Of a DNA stretch of 20,938 nt, positions 1,240 to 20,938 are shown in pieces. Within the stretch, counting starts at the first letter, position 1, and every line of letters starts with the position of its first letter. The DNA comes from Chloroflexota bacterium. GTDB lineage: Bacteria > Chloroflexota > Anaerolineae > Anaerolineales > Anaerolineaceae. A model generated the notes under the pieces. It did no database searches. It saw nothing but the letters and a program-made list of their open reading frames with translations, and was not told the origin of the DNA. The stretch is from assembly GCA_029265085.1 (NCBI GenBank), contig JAJUJY010000071.1:1-20938 (forward strand). The letters are read 5' to 3'. Both the position numbers and the translations under genes were made by a program.

Positions 1240-3168
1240 TTATGGTTCCAGCAGCGGCAGAACAATCGTAAAGGTTGATCCCTGTCCCTGGGTTGATTCA
1301 ACCCAGATGCGGCCTTCGTGGTTTTCGACAATGGATTTGACAATGGCCAAGCCCAGGCCGGTGCCGGTGTCTTCGGTGCCAAGGTTGCTTGCGCGATAGA
1401 ATTTGTCAAAAATGAAGGGCAAATCGGCAGAAGGGATGCCAATGCCGTAGTCTTTAATTTGTAAAATGACCTGGTTGTGCTCCACCTGGCCAATAATTTC
1501 GATCTTGCCGCCGGTATTGGAATATTTGATGGCGTTATCCACCATATGCTCAAACATCTGGCGCATCTGTACCGGGTGGCCAAAAAAGATGGGCAGTGTG
1601 GGCGGCATGACGACTTCCATCTGCACTGCTTTGTTGAGCGTAGCCTTGCGGAAGCTTTCAATCGCCAGATCCAGAATCTGGCGCAGATCAAAGCTTTCTT
1701 TGCGCGAATCAAATCCGGCTTCGATGCGACCCAGGTTAACCAGGTCGTCCACCAGGTGGGTAATGTTTTGCACACTGGTTTGTACGCGCCGGATAAATTC
1801 CTGCTGTAACTCGTTGATTGGGCCGGCGCGTTCAATCAACTCTGCATAGCCCAGGATGGCCGTTAACGGCGAGCGCAAATCATGTGAAACGGTGCTGACA
1901 AAGTCGCTCTTGATCCGGTCTAATTTCTTTAAATAGGTGATGTCATGCATGGTGATAGCGGTACCCACTTCCGGAATGGGCGTTCGTTGTGCGCTGAATA
2001 CCCGGCCGTCTTCCACGCTTAGTTCCGTGTGGTTGGACAGGGTGGGCGTATTTGGGTCAAGCAATTCGATTAACTCCACCTGTTGAATGGCCTCGTTTGC
2101 AGGTTTGCTGATGACATCTTCTTCCAGTTTCCCTAAGGCGACCGCGGCGGTTTGGTTGATCAGGAGCAGTTTTTGGTCTTGATCAACGACGATAACACCG
2201 TCCTGGATTTTTCTTAAGATGGTTTCTAGTTTATTGCGCTCCGCCTGGGTTGTGGAATAGAGCCGGGAATTTTGCAGTGCAATGACGGCATATTCTGCCA
2301 GGGTCAATAATAACTGCACATCTCGTTTTTGGAACGGCAGACGGCTGTGGCGGTTATCCACTCCTAACACACCAATGACTTTGCCTTGAAATTTCAGCGG
2401 CACATAAATCAGGCTGTGGACCAGGTAAGAGGTTTTAATCTTTTGCGGGGTTGATTCATCCAGCACAACCGGTTCGCCAGTCCGCAGCACGGAACCAGCC
2501 AGGGTGTCTTGAATGGGCAGGCGGAATGTGCGCACAAACTCATCTTGAAAGTTGCGCGAAGCCCGCATATACAGCTCACCCGTGTTTTCATCTATTAAAA
2601 GCAGGCTTCCTTCTTCAGAGCCAGTCAGTTCTACGGCTGCTTCGACAATGGCGGATAAAACATCGTCAGTATTTAATGAAGCAATTACAGACTGCCCCAG
2701 GCGGGTGAGTGTTTCCAATTCGTCAACCCGTTGGCGCAGGCGGTCGGTTGCCCGGCGTGATTCCAGCAGTACCCATTCTTTTGAGCTTTGCGATTTGGAA
2801 AGACTGTTTTCAACCGATTTTAATATTTCATCTGTCTTCAGCGGGGCACATAAATAATCACTGATCCCGATCCGCAGGGCTTGTTTGAGCAGTTCGGGTG
2901 TGTCGTTGGTCACAAATAAAAGAATTGGCACAGCCGGGAACCGTTTGATTAATTTTTGAGCCGTTTCCAGGCCGCTCGCGCCGTTGAGCGTTTCACTGAG
3001 AATAATCAGGTCCGGTTTATTAAATTCAAGCTGCTGCAAAGCACTGGTTTCATCTGCCTGGACCTGCACAGTGTAACCGGCGGATTGTAAGACCCGGTCC
3101 AACAAATAGGTGATTTGTTGGTTGGAGATGAGTACGAGAATTTTTTGCTCTTTACCTGGTGTGCTCAT
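1240..3168 (-). CDS. Sensor histidine kinase with degenerate N-terminal receiver (REC-GAF-PAS-HisKA-HATPase)
   Basis: A 642-residue soluble sensor kinase. Residues 9-125 have the receiver fold pattern but lack its chemistry: the acidic pair is replaced by I14/S15, the phosphoacceptor Asp by S58, and the conserved Lys by A108. A coiled linker (about 130-160) leads to a GAF domain (about 160-303), a PAS-like domain (about 310-415), and HisKA with an intact H box around H429 (VSHDLRSPL). The ATPase domain has the N box (N545), DYGIGI (D573) and GTGLGL (602-607). The kinase core therefore looks active while the receiver looks like a binding or dimer module. No transmembrane segment is seen, so it should sense in the cytoplasm. 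It is the second gene of an operon, 45 bases after the preceding gene; no partner response regulator is in the window. No strong ribosome site is visible before ATG 3168. Confidence 0.88.
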   Translation of the reverse strand: MSTPGKEQKILVLISNQQITYLLDRVLQSAGYTVQVQADETSALQQLEFNKPDLIILSETLNGASGLETAQKLIKRFPAVPILLFVTNDTPELLKQALRIGISDYLCAPLKTDEILKSVENSLSKSQSSKEWVLLESRRATDRLRQRVDELETLTRLGQSVIASLNTDDVLSAIVEAAVELTGSEEGSLLLIDENTGELYMRASRNFQDEFVRTFRLPIQDTLAGSVLRTGEPVVLDESTPQKIKTSYLVHSLIYVPLKFQGKVIGVLGVDNRHSRLPFQKRDVQLLLTLAEYAVIALQNSRLYSTTQAERNKLETILRKIQDGVIVVDQDQKLLLINQTAAVALGKLEEDVISKPANEAIQQVELIELLDPNTPTLSNHTELSVEDGRVFSAQRTPIPEVGTAITMHDITYLKKLDRIKSDFVSTVSHDLRSPLTAILGYAELIERAGPINELQQEFIRRVQTSVQNITHLVDDLVNLGRIEAGFDSRKESFDLRQILDLAIESFRKATLNKAVQMEVVMPPTLPIFFGHPVQMRQMFEHMVDNAIKYSNTGGKIEIIGQVEHNQVILQIKDYGIGIPSADLPFIFDKFYRASNLGTEDTGTGLGLAIVKSIVENHEGRIWVESTQGQGSTFTIVLPLLEP

Positions 3169-3213: not shown

Positions 3214-4866
3214 TTATCGCACGATCGCCAATGTAATATGGAATGTGGTGCCCTGGGCAGGTTTGCTTTCTACCCAGATCCTTCCCCCCTGGCGCGAGAT
3301 GATTTCTTTTGTCAGACTGGTGCTGATGCCTAATCCTCCAAAGCGGCGCGGGCGAGACTGTTCGGATCGCCTGGTGTTATCAAATACATCCTCTGGTTGT
3401 TTTTGATCAATGCCTGGGCCGGTGTCTGCGATGGTGATATGGGCTTGATTTTCTTTGACTTTTTCAAGTTGAATGCGAATATGTCCCCCGGCATTACAGA
3501 ATTTTACCGCATTACTGATTAATCCGTTAATAGCCTGCGATAACTGCCCTTCTTCTCCTTGAATATAGATGGGTTGGTTGGGAAGTTCTGTAATAATCGA
3601 AAGATTGCTTTGTTGGGCAATTGGCAGGAACTGGCTGGCAGACAGCCGCAGCAGATCATTCAGGTTAATCGGCCTGGCTGTTTTTGCCTGGGCTGCCTGC
3701 ACGGGAGAAATGGATTCAGAAAGGCGCAGCAAAGTTTCTGTGGTTTCTTGAATGGTGGTCAGGCTTTGACGCTGGTTTGGATTCCAGCGGGCAGTGGGGT
3801 CTTTGGTGAGCAGGTTGAGTGAACCGAGCAAAATCTCTGTTTGCATGCGGAGTTCTTTTTTCGTTCGTTCCAGAATTTCATTGGTGATTTTTTCACCGGA
3901 TAGCGCATTTTCCGCTACAAGCTGCTGCTGGCGCGCCCGGTCTTCCAGGGCGCGGAAGAGGCGCGCATTCACCATTGAAATAGAGGCAAAATCTGCAATT
4001 GCGCCTACCAGATGCAGTTCTGTGTCGGTAAACTGGGTGGCTGCTTTGCGCATTAATACCAGGATGCCAATGACCTGCTTGGCAGCTTTGATGGGCATAA
4101 TTAACGCAGATTGACCCAACCCGGCGATCTTAAATCGTTTTAGCGGCTCGCCGTGAATGGATAACGGTTCACCCGACATCGCCACCAGTGAGCTGATGCC
4201 ATCATCCCAGGGCTGGTTAAGCCGCACCGGCAAAGAGGCTGGAAGTTTTTGCTGCGCAACCAGTAAAAACCCTTTGCTGCTTTCATCGCGCAGTAAGAAC
4301 CAGCCCAGGTCGGCATGGGTGGCCTTGGTGACATTTTCAAGCAATTTTTCAAACAGGATTGCCTGGTCGGTAATGGAGGTGACCGCCTTACCCATCGAAA
4401 AAATGGTTGTCAATTCTCGAACGCGCTGCTGCAGTTCCCGGTTGGTTTGCTGCAGCTGGCGTTCCAGGCGGTCGCGTTCCTGGTGCTCGTGTACTTGTTT
4501 TAGAATTCTTTCCACCGCGGAGAGAATTTCTGGTTCGCGGGCAGGCCAGAGCAGGTAATCGGCAGCACCCAGGCGAAACGTCTGGATGATATCTGCTTCC
4601 ATGCCTTTGGGGGCGACCATGATGACCGGGGTGGTTATTCCCTGGGAAAAAAGTGCCACCATTAAATCTTTGCCGCTCAACCCGGGCAGGTTAATATTGG
4701 CAATAATCACATCGGGGGCCATTTGGATGGCACGCGAGATGGCTGTGGACGCATCATTCACCATAAAAACCTGATAACCGGCAGCCTGTAAAGTTTGCCG
4801 GCCGATCAGGTCGCTGATGAGCGGGTCATTTTCAACGATTAATATACGATCTTGCCCATTAACCAT
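3214..4866 (-). CDS. Pseudo-histidine kinase: degenerate receiver, GAF, DHp without His, intact ATPase motifs
   Basis: A 550-residue protein built like the neighbouring kinase but changed at nearly every phosphotransfer site. In the receiver (7-122) the acidic cluster is E12-N13-D14, but the phosphoacceptor position is N57 (IIANINLPG), the Thr position is A85 and the Lys position is W107. After a long coiled coil (about 125-155) come a GAF domain (about 160-305) and a DHp-like helix pair in which the H box reads TKKELRMQ: K337 replaces the phosphorylated His and Q342 the usual Pro. The ATPase domain keeps the N box (N452), DTGPGI (481-486) and GGLG (510-513), so it may still bind ATP. It lacks about 90 residues relative to its neighbour because there is no PAS domain. 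Likely a scaffold or allosteric partner of the downstream kinase; that role is inference. First gene of the operon, start ATG 4866 with no Shine-Dalgarno sequence. Confidence 0.85.
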   Translation of the reverse strand: MVNGQDRILIVENDPLISDLIGRQTLQAAGYQVFMVNDASTAISRAIQMAPDVIIANINLPGLSGKDLMVALFSQGITTPVIMVAPKGMEADIIQTFRLGAADYLLWPAREPEILSAVERILKQVHEHQERDRLERQLQQTNRELQQRVRELTTIFSMGKAVTSITDQAILFEKLLENVTKATHADLGWFLLRDESSKGFLLVAQQKLPASLPVRLNQPWDDGISSLVAMSGEPLSIHGEPLKRFKIAGLGQSALIMPIKAAKQVIGILVLMRKAATQFTDTELHLVGAIADFASISMVNARLFRALEDRARQQQLVAENALSGEKITNEILERTKKELRMQTEILLGSLNLLTKDPTARWNPNQRQSLTTIQETTETLLRLSESISPVQAAQAKTARPINLNDLLRLSASQFLPIAQQSNLSIITELPNQPIYIQGEEGQLSQAINGLISNAVKFCNAGGHIRIQLEKVKENQAHITIADTGPGIDQKQPEDVFDNTRRSEQSRPRRFGGLGISTSLTKEIISRQGGRIWVESKPAQGTTFHITLAIVR

Positions 4867-14928: not shown

Positions 14929-17253
14929 TTAATTCAACATGTTTTTGAGTTCTTCCAATACTTTAAGGTATTCTGCTTTATTGGGCGGGTTGAGCGCAAT
15001 AATTTCTTCTACGGTGGCCATTGCCATTTTGGCATTGGCTGCGGAAGCATACGCATCCGCAATGGCATCCAATTGTGCCACAGCCAGTTCTAGCTGCCCG
15101 CTGCGCCTGTATAGATCAAATAATCGCCGTAAGAAATCAATCTTCCCCGGCTGTTCAATGAGCAATTCTTTAAGAAAATCAATCGCTGCATCGCGGTGGT
15201 GTTGGGTTTCTAAGTAGCCGATATACTGATCTAATTCATCCAACGCAGATTTTTCCTGGCCGAGCCGTTGGTGGATCTCAATGATTTGCTTGCGGGTAGG
15301 CTTATCTTCCGGTTGGAGGGTGCGCAGCTGCTCAAACATGCGCAGCGCCTGCCGCCAATCGAGCCGCTGCATGTCGATATCGGCAATGCTGCTCAAAATT
15401 TTATGCGCCCACTGGCGATTATTTGCAGATTGTTGGGCTAGCCGCAAAGCCGTCAGATAGGTCTGGCGGGTCAGGTCTAATTCGGCCAGGCGGTAATACA
15501 CATCTGCGAGATCGATATACTGCTGGACGGCTTCATCCGTGCGTCCCTGGGAAATCAGCATGTCAATCAACCGCTGCCGGACGGTCACATCCATTGGCGA
15601 AATTTGTGCAATTCGGTTGAGCAGCTGCACAGCCTGGTTGGCTTCACCGCGCAGGGTGTACAGGTCGGTAATCAACAGGTATTTGGTCATGGCTTCTTGC
15701 ACCAGACCCTCCTGGAAGAGCAGGTCGCCAATTTGAACGTGCAGCGGCATATAGGTCGGGGCGATATTCAGGGCGCGGAACGCCTCTTCCATGGCCGAGC
15801 GGGTTTTCTTTTGACTGGCCAGAATCCGGATTTGTGCCATGGCTTCAATCACCTGCCCGCTGCGCGATTCCAGCAGCATTTCAGAGAGCGGCATTGGCGG
15901 AGCGTCTGCCGACTGAACAGGTAATTGTTGGCGTGCTTTTTGGAGTAGTTCGCGCCAATCGGGGCGTAAAAGCTGGTTTTTTATCGTCTCACAAAGTGTT
16001 TTAAGTTTGACCGGATCGGTTTCTTTGGATTGCGATTCAAGAATAGGCTCATAAAGCTGGCTAAGTTCGTCTGCATGTTCCAGCGGAGCGGTTTCTACAT
16101 CCGCATTTCGCAAGGCCTGCAAATAGGATTGCGCTGCTTCCGTGAATTTACCTTCTTGAAAATGGATTTGCCCCATGAGCAGGTAAGAGGCTAATGCAAA
16201 TTCCGGGTTGCGGACGGATTTTTGCAAACTGCGCAGGGCTTTTTTGTTGTCGATCTTGGAAAGCAGCAATCCCAGGTTGTAATACAGGCCAGGGTGTGAA
16301 AGACCAATTTGCTGCACCCGTTCCAGTTCTTCCGCGGCTTGCTGTTCGTCTCCGTGTGTTTGTGACTCAATCGCCTGCCCTAAATGAAGCAAAATGCGGG
16401 TGCGGTCGGATTGATCCAAAACGAGTCCGCCCGTACCGCGTACCAGTGAATTAATTCCGCGCCGCGAGCTTTGTGAGCTGAGGGTGGTATCTTCTGCCTG
16501 GTCAAATAACAGGGCGGCTAATTGCACCATTGCTTTTTGGCGTGCTTCTGCAATTGGATCCAGCGAGGGTTCGCCCAGGCTGCTTTTGGGTTCCAGTTTC
16601 TTTACATCGGCCATGCGCATGGGGCCGGTGCCGCCGCGCGGGCGGGCAGGCCGGGGCAGATTCTGGCCTTTCTTTAAGAGCTGTAGGGCCTGGGTGGCTT
16701 CTGCGCTGCCTGGCATTAACGTGAGCGCGTATTGAACCGCCTGGGTGGCTTTGCTGTTCTCGCCATTTTCTTGTAGCAGGGACGCGGTTGACAGGTATTC
16801 GGTTACCGATTCAGCTTTTTTGCCAATTCGTTCGTAGATCATCGCCAGGCGCGAATGGGCAGTCATGTTTTCAGGCTGCAGACTGGTGACCCGCACCCAG
16901 TTTTCAATGGATTTTTCTACGTCACGGGCTTTAAGGTGCAGTTCAGCCGCCTGGATGCTGCATTTCACGGCGTCAGGGAGCTGGCCGGTTCGTTCAAAAA
17001 TCCGAGCCAGTTTTTCAAATGGAACCGGGTCTTCAGGAGTCAGGCCGGTTAAGCGGCGGTAGATTTTGACGGCTTGTTCAAAATCTTGCAGCTCAAACAG
17101 TGCCAGTCCCAGGCTGGTTAATGCGCCTGGATGGTCGGGAAATTCGCTCAGGGCTTGTTGATAATATCCGGCTGCCGTTTTCCAATCCTGGTCCCAGGCA
17201 GCGGAATGCCCATCGTTCATTGCTTTTTGAAATGCCTGTTGGTTCCCGCTCAT
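14929..17253 (-). CDS. Large TPR-repeat protein
   Basis: A 774-residue, soluble-looking protein made mostly of tetratricopeptide repeats. At least three TPR blocks show: about 15-200 (GALTSLGLALFELQDFEQAVKIY), about 300-400 (GLYYNLGLLL), and about 490-760 (PLHVQIGDLLFQEGLVQEA). A charged Arg/Gly-rich linker (about 200-290) splits the first two. There is no signal peptide and no catalytic domain. TPR arrays bind peptides or proteins; the partner is not identifiable here. It is the third gene of the polA unit, 31 bases after polA, and GGAGAG 4 bases before ATG 17253 gives a good ribosome site. Co-transcription with polA is inferred from spacing only. Confidence 0.88.
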   Translation of the reverse strand: MSGNQQAFQKAMNDGHSAAWDQDWKTAAGYYQQALSEFPDHPGALTSLGLALFELQDFEQAVKIYRRLTGLTPEDPVPFEKLARIFERTGQLPDAVKCSIQAAELHLKARDVEKSIENWVRVTSLQPENMTAHSRLAMIYERIGKKAESVTEYLSTASLLQENGENSKATQAVQYALTLMPGSAEATQALQLLKKGQNLPRPARPRGGTGPMRMADVKKLEPKSSLGEPSLDPIAEARQKAMVQLAALLFDQAEDTTLSSQSSRRGINSLVRGTGGLVLDQSDRTRILLHLGQAIESQTHGDEQQAAEELERVQQIGLSHPGLYYNLGLLLSKIDNKKALRSLQKSVRNPEFALASYLLMGQIHFQEGKFTEAAQSYLQALRNADVETAPLEHADELSQLYEPILESQSKETDPVKLKTLCETIKNQLLRPDWRELLQKARQQLPVQSADAPPMPLSEMLLESRSGQVIEAMAQIRILASQKKTRSAMEEAFRALNIAPTYMPLHVQIGDLLFQEGLVQEAMTKYLLITDLYTLRGEANQAVQLLNRIAQISPMDVTVRQRLIDMLISQGRTDEAVQQYIDLADVYYRLAELDLTRQTYLTALRLAQQSANNRQWAHKILSSIADIDMQRLDWRQALRMFEQLRTLQPEDKPTRKQIIEIHQRLGQEKSALDELDQYIGYLETQHHRDAAIDFLKELLIEQPGKIDFLRRLFDLYRRSGQLELAVAQLDAIADAYASAANAKMAMATVEEIIALNPPNKAEYLKVLEELKNMLN

Positions 17254-17284: not shown

Positions 17285-20077
17285 TCATACCTCAGTTCTG
17301 GACAAGGGGCTGAGATTTCCCCAATTATCTCCCCAGCGTGCCTCGGTTAACAACGGAATGGACAGCGGATACGCATGTTCCATCACTTGCTGGACGGTAC
17401 GGGCGGCGGCATCGCGTTCTTCATCCGGCACTTCCAGGACCAACTCATCGTGAACCTGGAGCAGGATGCGCGATTTCAACCCGGCTTTTTCCAGTGCCGC
17501 CGGTAATTGCACCATCGCAATTTTGAGGATGTCCGCGGCTGTGCCCTGTACCGGGGCATTGATGGCCTCGCGTTCTTCTCGAGCACGCAGTGCCGGGTTT
17601 GCCCCGCTTTTTAAATTAGGAAAGTAGCGCTTGCGTCCGAGCAAGGTTTCTACATAACCCTGTCGCCCGGCCAGATGGCGCACATTATCCAGGTAGAGTT
17701 TAACGCCGGGGAATTGGGCGAAATAAGCCTTAACAAAGTTTTCCGATTCGCCCAGGGTCAGATCGGTGGTGCGGCTTAAGCCAAAGGCGCTCATGCCGTA
17801 AATCAAACCAAAGTTGATCGCTTTGGCATGACGGCGCTGGTCTTTGTTGACTTGATCCAATCCAAGGCCGTAAACGGCAGCGGCGGTGGCGGCGTGAATA
17901 TCTTGACCGGCCCGGAAAGCATTGAGCATGGATTCGTCACCGGACATGTGCGCAACAATGCGCAGTTCGATTTGCGAATAATCCACCGCCAGTAAGCCCA
18001 TTCCCGGGCTTGCCACAAAGGCATTTCGAACCAGCCGCCCGGTTTCGGTGCGGGTGGGAATGTTTTGTAAATTTGGGTCTGAAGAAGCCAGCCGGCCGGT
18101 GACTGACCCGGTTTGATTAAAGGAGGTATGGACCCGGCCTGTGCGCGGGTTCACCTGCTGCGGCAGCGCATCCACATATGTGGATTTGAGTTTGGCCAGT
18201 TCACGGTATTCCAGGATTAACTCCACGGCTGGATGCTGCTTGCGGATTTCTTCCAAAATATCGGCTGAGGTGGAAAAGTGTCCGCTGCTGGTCTTTTTCC
18301 GCCGGTCAGGAGGCTCCAGACCGAGCGTTTCAAACAAGGCTTTGGACAGCTGCTGCGTGGAATTCAGGTTGAAGGGATAGCCAACCGCCTTGTAGATTTC
18401 TTTTTCGATTTCTAATAAGCGCTGGTTGAGTTCACCAGACATTTTGTTCAGGTACGGGATATCCAAGAGGATGCCAGCCTGTTCCATGTTTGCCAACACG
18501 GGTACCAGAGGCATTTCAATGTCTTCAAACAGGCGCTCTACGTTATTCTCGCGCATGCGCTCGCGCAGTAACGGCACCAGGCGCAGGGTCACCTCGGCAT
18601 CGGCGGCGGCATAAGGCGCGGCCTTGACCACTGGAACGGTGTCCATCGTGGTTTGGTTTTTGCCTTTGCCGATTAATTCTTCAATGTGCGTCATGGTAAT
18701 ACCGAGGTAGCCTTCGGCCATATTTTTCAAGCCCAGGTTGTACCCTTCCGGGTGGATTAAAAATTCGGCGATCATGGTGTCAAAGGACAGTGGTGCGGGG
18801 AACAAGCCAACCTGTGCCAGGGATAACGCATCATATTTGAGGTTGTGCCCGGCTTTGGGTATGTTCGGATTGGTTAATGGCGGGCGCAGTGCTTCGATCA
18901 CCTGTTCGAGCGGCAGCTGCGGCTCGCCGGTTTTGTGCCCAACCGGAATGTAATAGCCCTGTCCCGGGCGAACGGCCAGAGAAATACCTACCAGGTCTGC
19001 TTTTAAGGGGTCGGTTGAGGTGGTTTCGGTATCAAAGGCGATCATGGCGGCCTGTTCCAGTTCGGAGACCAGTTCTGCCAGTGCTTGCAGGGTGCTGATG
19101 GTTACCACATCCAAATCATAGGCTGGTGCTTCACCGATCTGGACAACGGGCTCGCCGAACAGCGATAGCTGCTGGGTAGGGAGCGGTGCGGGGGCAGCCT
19201 GGCCGGTAAAATTCTTTATGCGAGAGACCAGTGTGCGAAATTCCAACCGCTGGAATAATTCTTCCACGGCTGCGTAATTGATGTGGCTGGTGCGGGCTTT
19301 TTCCAGGTCAAGCACCAGGGGAATATTGGTGCGGATGGTGGCAAGGTCACGGGACAAATAGGCGTTGGCCTTGTCTTTTTCGAGTAAGTTGCGCACGCGG
19401 GGCTGGATTTCCTCCAGGTGCGCGTACACCTCATCCAGCGTGGGGTATTTTTCTAACAGCGCAACGGCTGTTTTTTCGCCGATGCCGGCCACACCGGGAA
19501 TATTATCGGATTTGTCACCCACCAATGCTTTATATTCGATCACCTGGTCGGGGCGCACACCGAGGGATTCGATCACATCTTTGGCGGTGTAGTCTTTGGC
19601 TTCTGACAGCTTGCTGCCAGCCAGGTTAACAATGACTCGATCCTCCACCAGCTGCAGCAAATCGCGGTCTCCGGTGATAATTTTTACCCCCAGGCCCTTT
19701 TCCACAGCCAGATGAGCGATGCTGCCTAAAACATCATCAGCCTCTGCGCCTTCTTTTTCTAACCGCGGAAAGCCAAAAGCATCCACCATTTCCCGGATGG
19801 TTTCAATTTGCGGGCGCAAGTCATCCGGCATTTTAGCACGGGTGGCTTTATAACCGGGGAACATTTCGTTTCGAAAGGTTTTACCGGTATCAAAGGCAAC
19901 GGCCAGGTATTCCGGTTTATCCTGTTCAAGCAACTTCAACAAAACACTGGCAAAGCCATAAATTCCGGCGGTAGGCGCGCCGTCTCGGGTTGTTAAACGC
20001 TGCCCGGCTGTTGCCAGGGCAAAATAGGTGCGGTAGGCCAGGGCATGCCCGTCAATTAGATATAAAGTAGGCGGCAT
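17285..20077 (-). CDS. polA: DNA polymerase I
   Basis: A 930-residue, full-length DNA polymerase I for Okazaki fragment maturation and repair. The 5'-3' nuclease domain (1-290) keeps its acidic residues (EADDVLGS 112-119, TGDRDLLQLV, VGDKSDNIPG 186-195). The 3'-5' exonuclease domain (about 320-505) keeps all four metal residues: D349 and E351 (FDTET), D416 (HNLKYD) and the YxxxD motif (Y489, D493), so proofreading should work, unlike in Thermus. The polymerase domain has motif A (DYSQIELR, D699), motif B (RRHAKAINFGLIYG; R748, K752, Y760; Phe756 is the usual ddNTP-discriminating residue) and motif C (QVHDE, H876-D877). ATG 20077 is chosen over the longer frame because the conserved PPTLYLIDGHALAYR begins at once. 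No strong ribosome site. Second gene of the minus unit. Confidence 0.97.
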   Translation of the reverse strand: MPPTLYLIDGHALAYRTYFALATAGQRLTTRDGAPTAGIYGFASVLLKLLEQDKPEYLAVAFDTGKTFRNEMFPGYKATRAKMPDDLRPQIETIREMVDAFGFPRLEKEGAEADDVLGSIAHLAVEKGLGVKIITGDRDLLQLVEDRVIVNLAGSKLSEAKDYTAKDVIESLGVRPDQVIEYKALVGDKSDNIPGVAGIGEKTAVALLEKYPTLDEVYAHLEEIQPRVRNLLEKDKANAYLSRDLATIRTNIPLVLDLEKARTSHINYAAVEELFQRLEFRTLVSRIKNFTGQAAPAPLPTQQLSLFGEPVVQIGEAPAYDLDVVTISTLQALAELVSELEQAAMIAFDTETTSTDPLKADLVGISLAVRPGQGYYIPVGHKTGEPQLPLEQVIEALRPPLTNPNIPKAGHNLKYDALSLAQVGLFPAPLSFDTMIAEFLIHPEGYNLGLKNMAEGYLGITMTHIEELIGKGKNQTTMDTVPVVKAAPYAAADAEVTLRLVPLLRERMRENNVERLFEDIEMPLVPVLANMEQAGILLDIPYLNKMSGELNQRLLEIEKEIYKAVGYPFNLNSTQQLSKALFETLGLEPPDRRKKTSSGHFSTSADILEEIRKQHPAVELILEYRELAKLKSTYVDALPQQVNPRTGRVHTSFNQTGSVTGRLASSDPNLQNIPTRTETGRLVRNAFVASPGMGLLAVDYSQIELRIVAHMSGDESMLNAFRAGQDIHAATAAAVYGLGLDQVNKDQRRHAKAINFGLIYGMSAFGLSRTTDLTLGESENFVKAYFAQFPGVKLYLDNVRHLAGRQGYVETLLGRKRYFPNLKSGANPALRAREEREAINAPVQGTAADILKIAMVQLPAALEKAGLKSRILLQVHDELVLEVPDEERDAAARTVQQVMEHAYPLSIPLLTEARWGDNWGNLSPLSRTEV

Positions 20078-20108
20078 GAGGTTGTTCCGTTCTGTCGTTT
20101 CAAGTGAT

Positions 20109-20938
20109 TTATGGTAGTGCGAAGCCTTGACGCTGGCGCGTCCGTTGAATAAAGTCGTGGAGCAGGTGCTGAGCCGGAGGCTGCTTCCCGCTGACAATTA
20201 GATAGCCGGGAGCCCAAAACTCTTCTGCCGGGCTGTGCCCGCCTAATTCCGGGAAGCGGGCAAAGATGCGCAGCGAGGATTGCTGGCGTAAGATGCGCGC
20301 CAGATACCCCGGCGAAACGGCTGGCGCTACCTCCACGGTCCATTGTAAATACTCGGGTTGGATCGCCAGGTCTGTTAATTGCCAGCCAAAGGACTGGCAA
20401 AATTGCCGGATCCACGGGTCCAATTCGGCAGCAATTTTCCCTTCCAGGCGTTGGTCTGGGCGGCGAGGAATGAGCAGGCAGGTATAAGCAGGGCGCAGTA
20501 TCGCCGTCTGGGCAGCGAAGCCGGGCGGCGGAGGACTGCCAGGACGGCCTCCAATAGGTTGTGTGTCACCATTATTGCCAGACGGATTTTTGCGGTATGA
20601 CAGCGGTTGGGTGGCTGCCTGATCCGCAGTGACCGGCTGGGGTTGGTTTTCGGCCGCTGTTTTTACTTCCCACGGAAAGAGAAATCCATCGGATGATTGG
20701 GCTTCTGTTTCAGGAATCCAACCATTTACGGCTGCCGTTGGGGAAGGGTCTGGTGAAGGGGCGCTGGCCAGCAGTTCTAATAAGCCCAGGTCAATCGCGG
20801 GCAGTTCTTCCGGTCCCTCTTCCAGCCATTCGAAGGTATCCTCTTCGGCAGGGTGGGCTGGTTCTTCTACGACCTCGGGGGGCTGCAATTCTGCCAGCCG
20901 CTCCATAAAATCCAATACCTGTGCGCGGACACGAGTCA
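20109..20938 (-). CDS. Dead IS200/IS605 TnpA-like (Y1 HUH) domain protein, polA-linked; 5' end may lie outside window
   Basis: Residues are counted from the TTG at 20915; ATG is at 20906; the frame is still open to the window edge, so the start may lie outside. The first about 138 residues are acidic and Pro/Gln/Gly-rich, disordered. Residues 143-260 follow the IS200/IS605 TnpA (Y1 transposase) pattern, with a gap-free match in layout from memory to IS608 TnpA over about 79 residues: IPRRPDQRLEG, the region ending LAIQPEYLQWTVEVAP, the helix RILRQQSSLRIFARFPEL, EEFWAPGYLIVSG, then HDFIQ. Both catalytic sites are lost. The HUH motif (H-x-H) is Y189-L-Q191 and the nucleophilic Tyr is F255. It therefore cannot cut DNA as a transposase does, though it may still bind single-stranded DNA or hairpins. 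No element ends or IS boundaries are visible. It is transcribed ahead of polA, with a 31-base gap. Confidence 0.72.
   Translation of the reverse strand, partial: TRVRAQVLDFMERLAELQPPEVVEEPAHPAEEDTFEWLEEGPEELPAIDLGLLELLASAPSPDPSPTAAVNGWIPETEAQSSDGFLFPWEVKTAAENQPQPVTADQAATQPLSYRKNPSGNNGDTQPIGGRPGSPPPPGFAAQTAILRPAYTCLLIPRRPDQRLEGKIAAELDPWIRQFCQSFGWQLTDLAIQPEYLQWTVEVAPAVSPGYLARILRQQSSLRIFARFPELGGHSPAEEFWAPGYLIVSGKQPPAQHLLHDFIQRTRQRQGFALP

Follow-up and report, generated by a model that had tools for sequence, protein, structure and literature searches.

The window analyzed here comprises the 20,938 nucleotides of contig JAJUJY010000071.1 from a Chloroflexota bacterium, and its right end carries a minus-strand gene cluster that joins a transposase-like protein to DNA polymerase I. 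The open reading frame (ORF) at positions 20109 to 20936 was read as 275 codons and represents the C-terminal part of a three-domain gene, the 5' part of which lies beyond the window. Residues 1 to 17 (20886 to 20936) correspond to the last helix of a Roadblock/LC7-like domain, residues 18 to 150 (20487 to 20885) to a low-complexity, proline-rich linker that contains FLFPWE and was delimited from the translation, and residues 151 to 271 (20124 to 20486) to a catalytically dead Y1 domain of the IS200/IS605 TnpA-like type, which was identified by PF01797, AlphaFold2, Foldseek and VIA. A gap of 31 nt (20078 to 20108) separates the ORF from the ATG of a gene at 17285 to 20077, which we take from its translated sequence to be polA, encoding DNA polymerase I; the same protein is encoded downstream in most of the relatives' loci. 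The third gene of this conserved cluster, at 14929 to 17253, encodes a TPR-repeat protein (Pfam TPR). All coordinates given below refer to the minus strand as well.

A previous sequence-only reading of this DNA had assigned a Y1 transposase fold to the C-terminal half of the ORF, and this is borne out by Pfam, Foldseek and VIA. The Pfam family PF01797 (Y1_Tnp) matches residues 144 to 246 of the earlier 268-residue reading with an E-value of 3.4e-10 and 40.5 bits, compared to a cut-off of 23, and the NCBIfam model for IS200 TnpA yields 48.2 bits for the ORF, which is below its equivalog cut-off of 55. The AlphaFold2 model of the Y1 domain has a pLDDT of 90. The 29 PDB matches that this predicted structure gave in Foldseek below 1e-3 are without exception IS200/IS605-type Y1 transposases, and its structure matches in VIA are likewise IS200/IS605 TnpA. 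A segment described earlier as W-x-x-x-Y-x-V actually reads WAPGYLIV, i.e., W-x3-Y-x2-V.

The catalytic centre of this domain is lost. In an alignment with the IS200-type PDB chains 2ec2, 2f4f and 2fyx, the PDHIH stretch of TnpA corresponds to PEYLQ in the window. The former HUH motif thus reads Y-L-Q (20343 to 20351; residues 196 to 198 of 275, equivalent to 189 to 191 of 268), and both PDB and family alignments confirm the replacement of the two histidines, by Y189 and Q191 in the 268-residue numbering. The position of the catalytic tyrosine (20151 to 20153; residue 262 of 275, F255 of 268) is occupied by phenylalanine, and the third metal ligand, which is glutamine in TnpA, is replaced by threonine (20139 to 20141; residue 266 of 275). 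In IS608, this glutamine (Q131) acts as a metal ligand together with the HUH histidines, as stated in a broad Y1 family survey (PMC6006769). The window, having F and T, does not match the Y---Q signature of TnpA; nor does it match the signature of RAYT/TnpA_REP proteins, given in the same source as HuH and Y---NP, since it reads F---T.

The sequence-only reading had also proposed a long, disordered N-terminal addition. This addition and the TTG start are artefacts of the window edge, because the reading frame is open at its 5' end with no stop up to the end of the window, and the relatives run on into Roadblock and REC domains. The stretch TRVRAQVLDFMERLAEL of the window aligns to the final Roadblock helix of L001, L016 and other relatives; the Roadblock domain itself was identified in relatives only, as the window ORF begins inside its last helix. 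The 31 bases between the ORF and the ATG of polA on the same strand were confirmed, and no insertion-sequence ends were seen in the scanned kilobase (19900 to 20938), in line with the earlier statement. In this interval the only inverted repeats are two 9-bp palindromes, the region upstream of the ORF being outside the window, and the minus strand shows nothing that resembles a terminator.

Relatives were collected at several levels. A protein database search with the window ORF returned 11 proteins. Scanning genome contigs with the single protein revealed no relative, and scanning them with an alignment recovered relatives: 203 pattern matches were condensed to 159 relatives, of which 80 loci were kept (L001 to L080). 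With further loci from whole genomes, and after dropping Y1 hits of less than 80 residues and repeats of identical Y1 domains, 166 distinct Y1 hits were obtained. These are divided into 132 fusions with REC and/or Roadblock domains, 14 proteins that retain both HUH histidines (HxH) and, counted apart from the fusions, 5 cut proteins including the window and 15 short dead proteins. The relatives are titled Anaerolinea, Longilinea, Brevefilum, Anaerolineaceae, Anaerolineales, Anaerolineae or Chloroflexi/Chloroflexota, and they include one metagenome-assembled genome titled Herpetosiphon and one titled Candidatus Aquidulcis, which is another class of Chloroflexota; Longilinea arvoryzae KOME-1 also carries the gene (L016).

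In full-length relatives, a receiver (REC) domain is followed by an MglB-like Roadblock/LC7 domain, a linker and the dead Y1 domain. The fusion ORFs are 289 to 968 amino acids long (median 552.5), and a Roadblock hit was obtained in 129 and a REC hit in 117 of the 132. The HxH proteins have a median ORF of 153.5 amino acids, and the two longer ones among the 14 (428 and 512 amino acids) are without REC or Roadblock. In a PDB profile search, the middle-domain profile built from the relatives matches MglB (3t1s) at 4.8e-7, and the predicted order of helices and strands agrees with that of Roadblock proteins; the Pfam Roadblock models gave no match to this domain. A receiver fold was found in the N-terminal domain, and its model retrieved receiver-containing chains only in VIA, a list filled by that domain. 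Across L001 to L080, Asp54 is present in 71/71 and Lys103 in 67/72 rows having a residue. The acidic pair, which is expected near the N-terminus of receivers, is not kept (T or S at position 9 in 70/70, mostly P at position 10); some distant members keep an Asp at the acidic-pair position. Rag-GTPases appeared among the first Foldseek chains for the N-terminal model and were given no weight because of a TM score of about 0.3 and an rmsd of about 16. The linker has a median length of 160 residues, and the motif [FLY].[FLYW]PWE, represented by FLFPWE in the window, occurs in only 4/132 fusions.

Other arrangements of the dead domain were observed as well. Stand-alone dead-Y1 ORFs of 144 to 231 amino acids that are close to the fusion family are present in L087, L088 and L102 to L110, and four of the short dead proteins are encoded in genome G377. 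In P0005, a GalT C-terminal domain (PF02744) is joined to a dead Y1 domain on a contig of 1838 bases, which may be a chimeric assembly.

Within the family, HxH is kept in none of the 132 distinct fusions: HxH hits had been set apart first, and none of these 14 turned out to have REC or Roadblock. The two HUH positions read YQ in 87 fusions and many other pairs in the rest, and a few retain one histidine (HE, HQ, HL, HR, HV, YH, FH). The glutamine ligand is kept in 8/132. The reported replacement of the tyrosine holds for the window but not family-wide: of the 81 rows formed by the window and L001 to L080, 47 have Tyr in this column and 34 have Phe, and the 132 fusions show Phe in 68, Tyr in 61, Leu in 2 and a gap in 1. 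Judged from these alignments, the constant features of the family are the loss of the HUH histidine pair and, mostly, of the glutamine ligand.

The dead domain is nevertheless maintained. Among 272 close pairs, 27 were listed, with at most two per locus, and the 26 that gave a value had a Y1 dN/dS of 0.013 to 0.092; dS is above 1 for some pairs, and in a few REC or Roadblock comparisons the two sequences were not in register. The Y1 ratios are similar to those of Roadblock and lower than those of REC in 12/12 pairs with both values. Judged by these ratios, the Y1 domain is under purifying selection and the gene is not a decaying copy. In a tree of 102 rows, a single branch (100/99) sets the 14 HxH rows apart, and the fusion L086 is placed next to them. 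This tree was built from few columns, contains long branches and lacks an outgroup, so that it does no more than suggest that the dead form arose once.

The polA neighbourhood, noted earlier for the window, is conserved in relatives. In the gene-order survey, polA was located downstream in 72 of 80 loci, with a median gap of 100 bp and a maximum of 1.3 kb, and it follows at less than 2 kb in 112 of the 132 distinct fusions, in 109 of them within 500 bp. None of the 15 short dead proteins has polA within 2 kb, and the same applies to the 14 HxH proteins, for which the fetched stretch only was searched and three have less than 1.1 kb downstream. Several of the 20 fusions scored without polA inside 2 kb are explained individually. 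In L119 polA is linked by coordinates after all, in L056 by the sequence ahead of polA, translated by eye, and in L023 by a tblastn gap of 103 bp. It is 2.9 kb away from L133 and 2.7 kb from L161, and for eight further fusions the stretch ends after 661 to 1996 bases, although in G026, the genome of L214, polA follows after approx. 1.4 kb. The TPR gene is present within 2 kb after polA in 56/57 loci with enough sequence. The upstream genes are not conserved; their commonest family, encoded on the opposite strand, is found in 24/75 placeable loci. Among the families of neighbouring genes, most of them unannotated, no GTPase stood out, and no search aimed at GTPases was made. Immediately after the dead-Y1 gene of L119 (G321 C95), the match to polA is split into two separate pieces. 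Farther along the window, 3214 to 4866 encodes a hybrid sensor with REC-GAF-HATPase architecture, which adjoins a second hybrid sensor (REC-GAF-PAS-HisKA-HATPase) at 1240 to 3168.

The reading that we favour, and consider rather probable, is that the window ORF forms the 3' portion of a host gene that spans approx. 550 codons and encodes a non-catalytic three-domain adaptor that is made together with PolA and the TPR protein and uses its Y1 domain as a docking surface. The architecture of the relatives, the loss of the HUH metal site, the purifying selection and the polA link are established at the sequence level. The adaptor would start with REC and an MglB-type Roadblock/LC7 domain, which a flexible linker connects to the pseudo-transposase (Y1) domain at the C-terminus. 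Like TnpA and Roadblock proteins, which form dimers, it probably acts as a dimer, and it is presumably co-produced with PolA and the TPR protein. Its REC and Roadblock parts could take in a signal or bind a partner, e.g., a small GTPase, and the Y1 head, unable to cut, would be retained for docking to structured single-stranded DNA in the lineages near the window or to a protein partner. The docked head could then position or tune PolA during replication and repair. The earlier proposal of a domesticated transposase that became a DNA-binding partner is in part retained, as the dead centre, the purifying selection and the polA link agree with it and none of the outcomes named there as refuting it was observed, but the partner is a whole signalling-type protein.

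Several observations weigh against this adaptor. As the window reaches no farther than the last part of the Roadblock domain, the upstream domains of its protein are inferred from relatives. The gene is by no means present in all genomes: a Y1 profile had a hit in 118/201 genomes of the order, some of them active-like, and some genomes carry extra hits, up to five in G377. In the class Anaerolineae, a profile covering Roadblock, linker and Y1 matched 83/248 genomes at 1e-8; part of these matches are confined to Roadblock or to an active-like Y1, and some longer ORFs of 650 to 1256 amino acids match both parts. In L210, L212, L213, L219 and L221, the ORF is located 42 to 95 bp ahead of polA. 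Only 7 of 30 class polA loci have a REC/Roadblock ORF upstream, namely three fusions and four REC-Roadblock ORFs without Y1 (L172, L176, L178, L181; the Roadblock match is weak in the latter three, with E-values of 0.0004 to 0.01). The remaining 23 have neither, although three of these (L165, L170, L191) have little or no sequence upstream of polA. L216 provides a fifth REC-Roadblock ORF without Y1 before polA. A Roadblock profile had a hit in 21/80 class genomes, just upstream of polA in nine (G001, G033, G063, G084, G016, G057, G015, G040, G069) and within 2 kb of it in G026; in the other eleven the hit is elsewhere, or polA was unfound or on a different contig. Moreover, the gene is located away from polA in seven genomes (L017, L018, L029, L013, L032, L075, L115), and thus polA adjacency is not required. 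Finally, distant lineages have an acidic Y1 domain, with a lowest net charge of -13 in L219, and HxH is kept in two of the 78 database proteins that match Y1. These are the near-identical metagenome fusions P0069 and P0070 (839 and 837 amino acids), and since both have Phe at the Tyr position, the H-H-Y combination was seen in no fusion.

Because the polA link also involves REC-Roadblock proteins, the Y1 domain may be a later addition to a REC-Roadblock protein, as far as the compared sequences indicate; its loss in some lineages is equally possible. In the genomes of L017, L018, L029 and L013, polA is found elsewhere (L222 to L225) with its own promoter-like element, TATGGTAAATTAA, and in L222 to L224 it stands behind genes that are presumably infC, rpmI and rplT.

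A more far-reaching and tentative reading is that the hairpin-reading Y1 domain of a transposon, now catalytically silent, became the part with which a receiver-Roadblock signalling protein reads DNA, and that this protein controls DNA polymerase I. It could recruit PolA to structured single-stranded DNA or tune PolA synthesis via a hairpin before polA; a switch of the receiver or small-GTPase type would then be coupled directly to a polymerase of replication and repair. The net charge of the Y1 domain averages +5.5 (sd 2.1) in HxH proteins and +1.6 (sd 3.3) in fusions, and is +2 in the window. Four arginines are nearly invariant in the window and L001 to L080: R158 and R217 in 81/81, R267 in 80/81 and R214 in 79/81 rows. 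DNA binding by Y1 domains near the window is plausible on sequence grounds, but as a common role of all lineages it appears unlikely, because the charge falls from the HxH proteins to the fusions and is strongly acidic in the distant one. For IS608 TnpA, PMC6006769 describes a presumed interaction with the beta clamp and an affinity for fork-like DNA. A clamp-like word, Q[LM]x[LF]F with x being S, D, T, E or N, which was loosened from the motif given in that source, is present in 43/71 polA ORFs of L001 to L080, counted with no control. The window PolA contains QQLSLF at residues 302 to 307 (19157 to 19174), which resembles the beta-clamp binding motif given there. The TnpA-clamp interaction and the clamp-like words in PolA are considered as leads only.

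It is more doubtful that the protein is a pure interaction hub of a receiver/Roadblock, possibly GTPase, pathway, in which Y1 would serve only as a dimerisation or docking scaffold off DNA and shared expression would explain why polA is a neighbour. The REC and Roadblock domains, the acidic Y1 domains of distant lineages, the REC-Roadblock forms without Y1 and the loss of the polA link in some genomes would all be compatible with such a hub. A recurrent linker motif, chosen after the alignment had been viewed and not present in the window, also points in this direction; it occurs in 56/132 fusions versus 0.2 in shuffled linkers, mostly 28 to 41 residues past the Roadblock domain. Nevertheless, a scaffold off DNA does not easily account for the nearly invariant arginines of Y1, and the polA link persists among widely diverged members.

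We regard it as unlikely that the protein is a polA autoregulator, in which the dead Y1 domain reads a leader hairpin as TnpA reads element ends and REC/Roadblock set the response. This model draws on a hairpin, GCGCAGAG-TATAAT-short loop-CTCTGCGC, located between the dead-Y1 gene and polA in some relatives (L049, L058, L033 and others). The exact pattern GCGCAGAG-TATAAT-N-CTCTGCG(C) is present once each in 14/202 genomes of the order, and all 14 copies are directly behind the dead-Y1 gene. The word AGTATAAT occurs in 20/54 gaps versus at most 4 in two-base-block shuffles, and a stem of at least 8 in the gap before polA in 33/94 relatives versus 1.0 in single-base shuffles, relatedness of the genomes being ignored in both comparisons; the polA-TPR gap has such a stem in 5/60. 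In an alignment of 24 of the 26 TATAAT stretches (L049 and L073 were left out), the TATAAT loop is invariant and the stem covaries, with 11 double-change cells versus 2.7 in shuffles (0/500), the value for further pair types being 72/500. On the other hand, the hairpin is absent from the polA gap of the window and from most of the relatives' gaps, and 24 of the 33 gaps with a stem of at least 8 contain a T-run, resembling intrinsic terminators. In L227, a near copy stays before polA although the dead-Y1 gene lies elsewhere, and the hairpin may therefore be a polA signal unrelated to the dead-Y1 protein. Thus, the TATAAT hairpin may be a terminator or leader signal of polA; that the dead Y1 domain might recognise it is a speculative, though testable, proposal.

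Two further elements were considered near these genes. A promoter reading of the TATAAT loop was rejected, as no conserved -35 box was seen among the 26 TATAAT cases, of which L073 is not the hairpin itself. In many relatives, TGATACACT is found shortly ahead of the start codon of the dead-Y1 gene, behind a TTGC-like box; it was considered as an operator but looks more like a promoter with an extended -10 element.

An ordinary IS200/IS605 or RAYT transposase, or its decaying remnant, is highly improbable despite the database names of relatives, the NCBIfam score and the several short dead relatives in G377, because the window lacks the HUH histidines, the tyrosine and the third ligand, relatives are fused to REC and Roadblock and linked to polA, no element ends were seen in the scanned kilobase, the gene is single-copy in 7/8 genomes first examined, and the low dN/dS together with the catalytic loss across the sample rules out an insertion sequence or a decaying copy, so that the protein is, by these comparisons, neither.

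Relatives are labelled in databases as 'transposase', 'RayT' or 'response regulator'. In the Y1 family survey, sequences without the core motifs were set aside as probably non-functional (PMC6006769), and a class of pseudo-transposases may therefore hide under the labels 'transposase' and 'RayT'. Among the papers listed by literature searches, with subscription papers outside their scope, we found no description of a Y1 fusion with receiver or Roadblock domains, and no account of a selected dead Y1 protein linked to polA. The data suggest that these little-studied bacteria have taken over a protein of mobile DNA to help or regulate a core enzyme of replication and repair, and if it acts on PolA or the polA gene, a universal enzyme would be controlled in a novel way.

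The C-terminal domain shares fold and motif layout with the IS200/IS605 TnpA proteins (IS608, ISDra2, 2fyx, 2f4f). In contrast to these, the fusion family is without HxH and mostly without the glutamine ligand, its tyrosine is often phenylalanine, and it has REC, Roadblock, linker and polA link; in the window, no element ends were seen in the kilobase scanned. The middle domain of the relatives matches MglB of the Roadblock/LC7 proteins, and the combination resembles the MglA-MglB-RomR polarity module, where a receiver protein and a Roadblock protein act together; here both are contained in a single protein with a dead transposase domain, encoded beside polA. TldR, an inactive TnpB turned regulator, is a different, RNA-guided protein with a different fold. 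Its likeness lies in being a transposon-family protein kept as a regulator, described in PMC13418256 as an RNA-guided transcription factor. TnpA_REP/RAYT proteins are similar as host-adopted Y1 proteins of low copy number, as described in PMC6006769 and PMC8266576. Adopted transposases are already known; the dead-Y1 fusion would extend them by a Y1 domain that stays under strong selection after the loss of its catalytic centre and is joined to receiver and Roadblock domains in a polA-linked protein.
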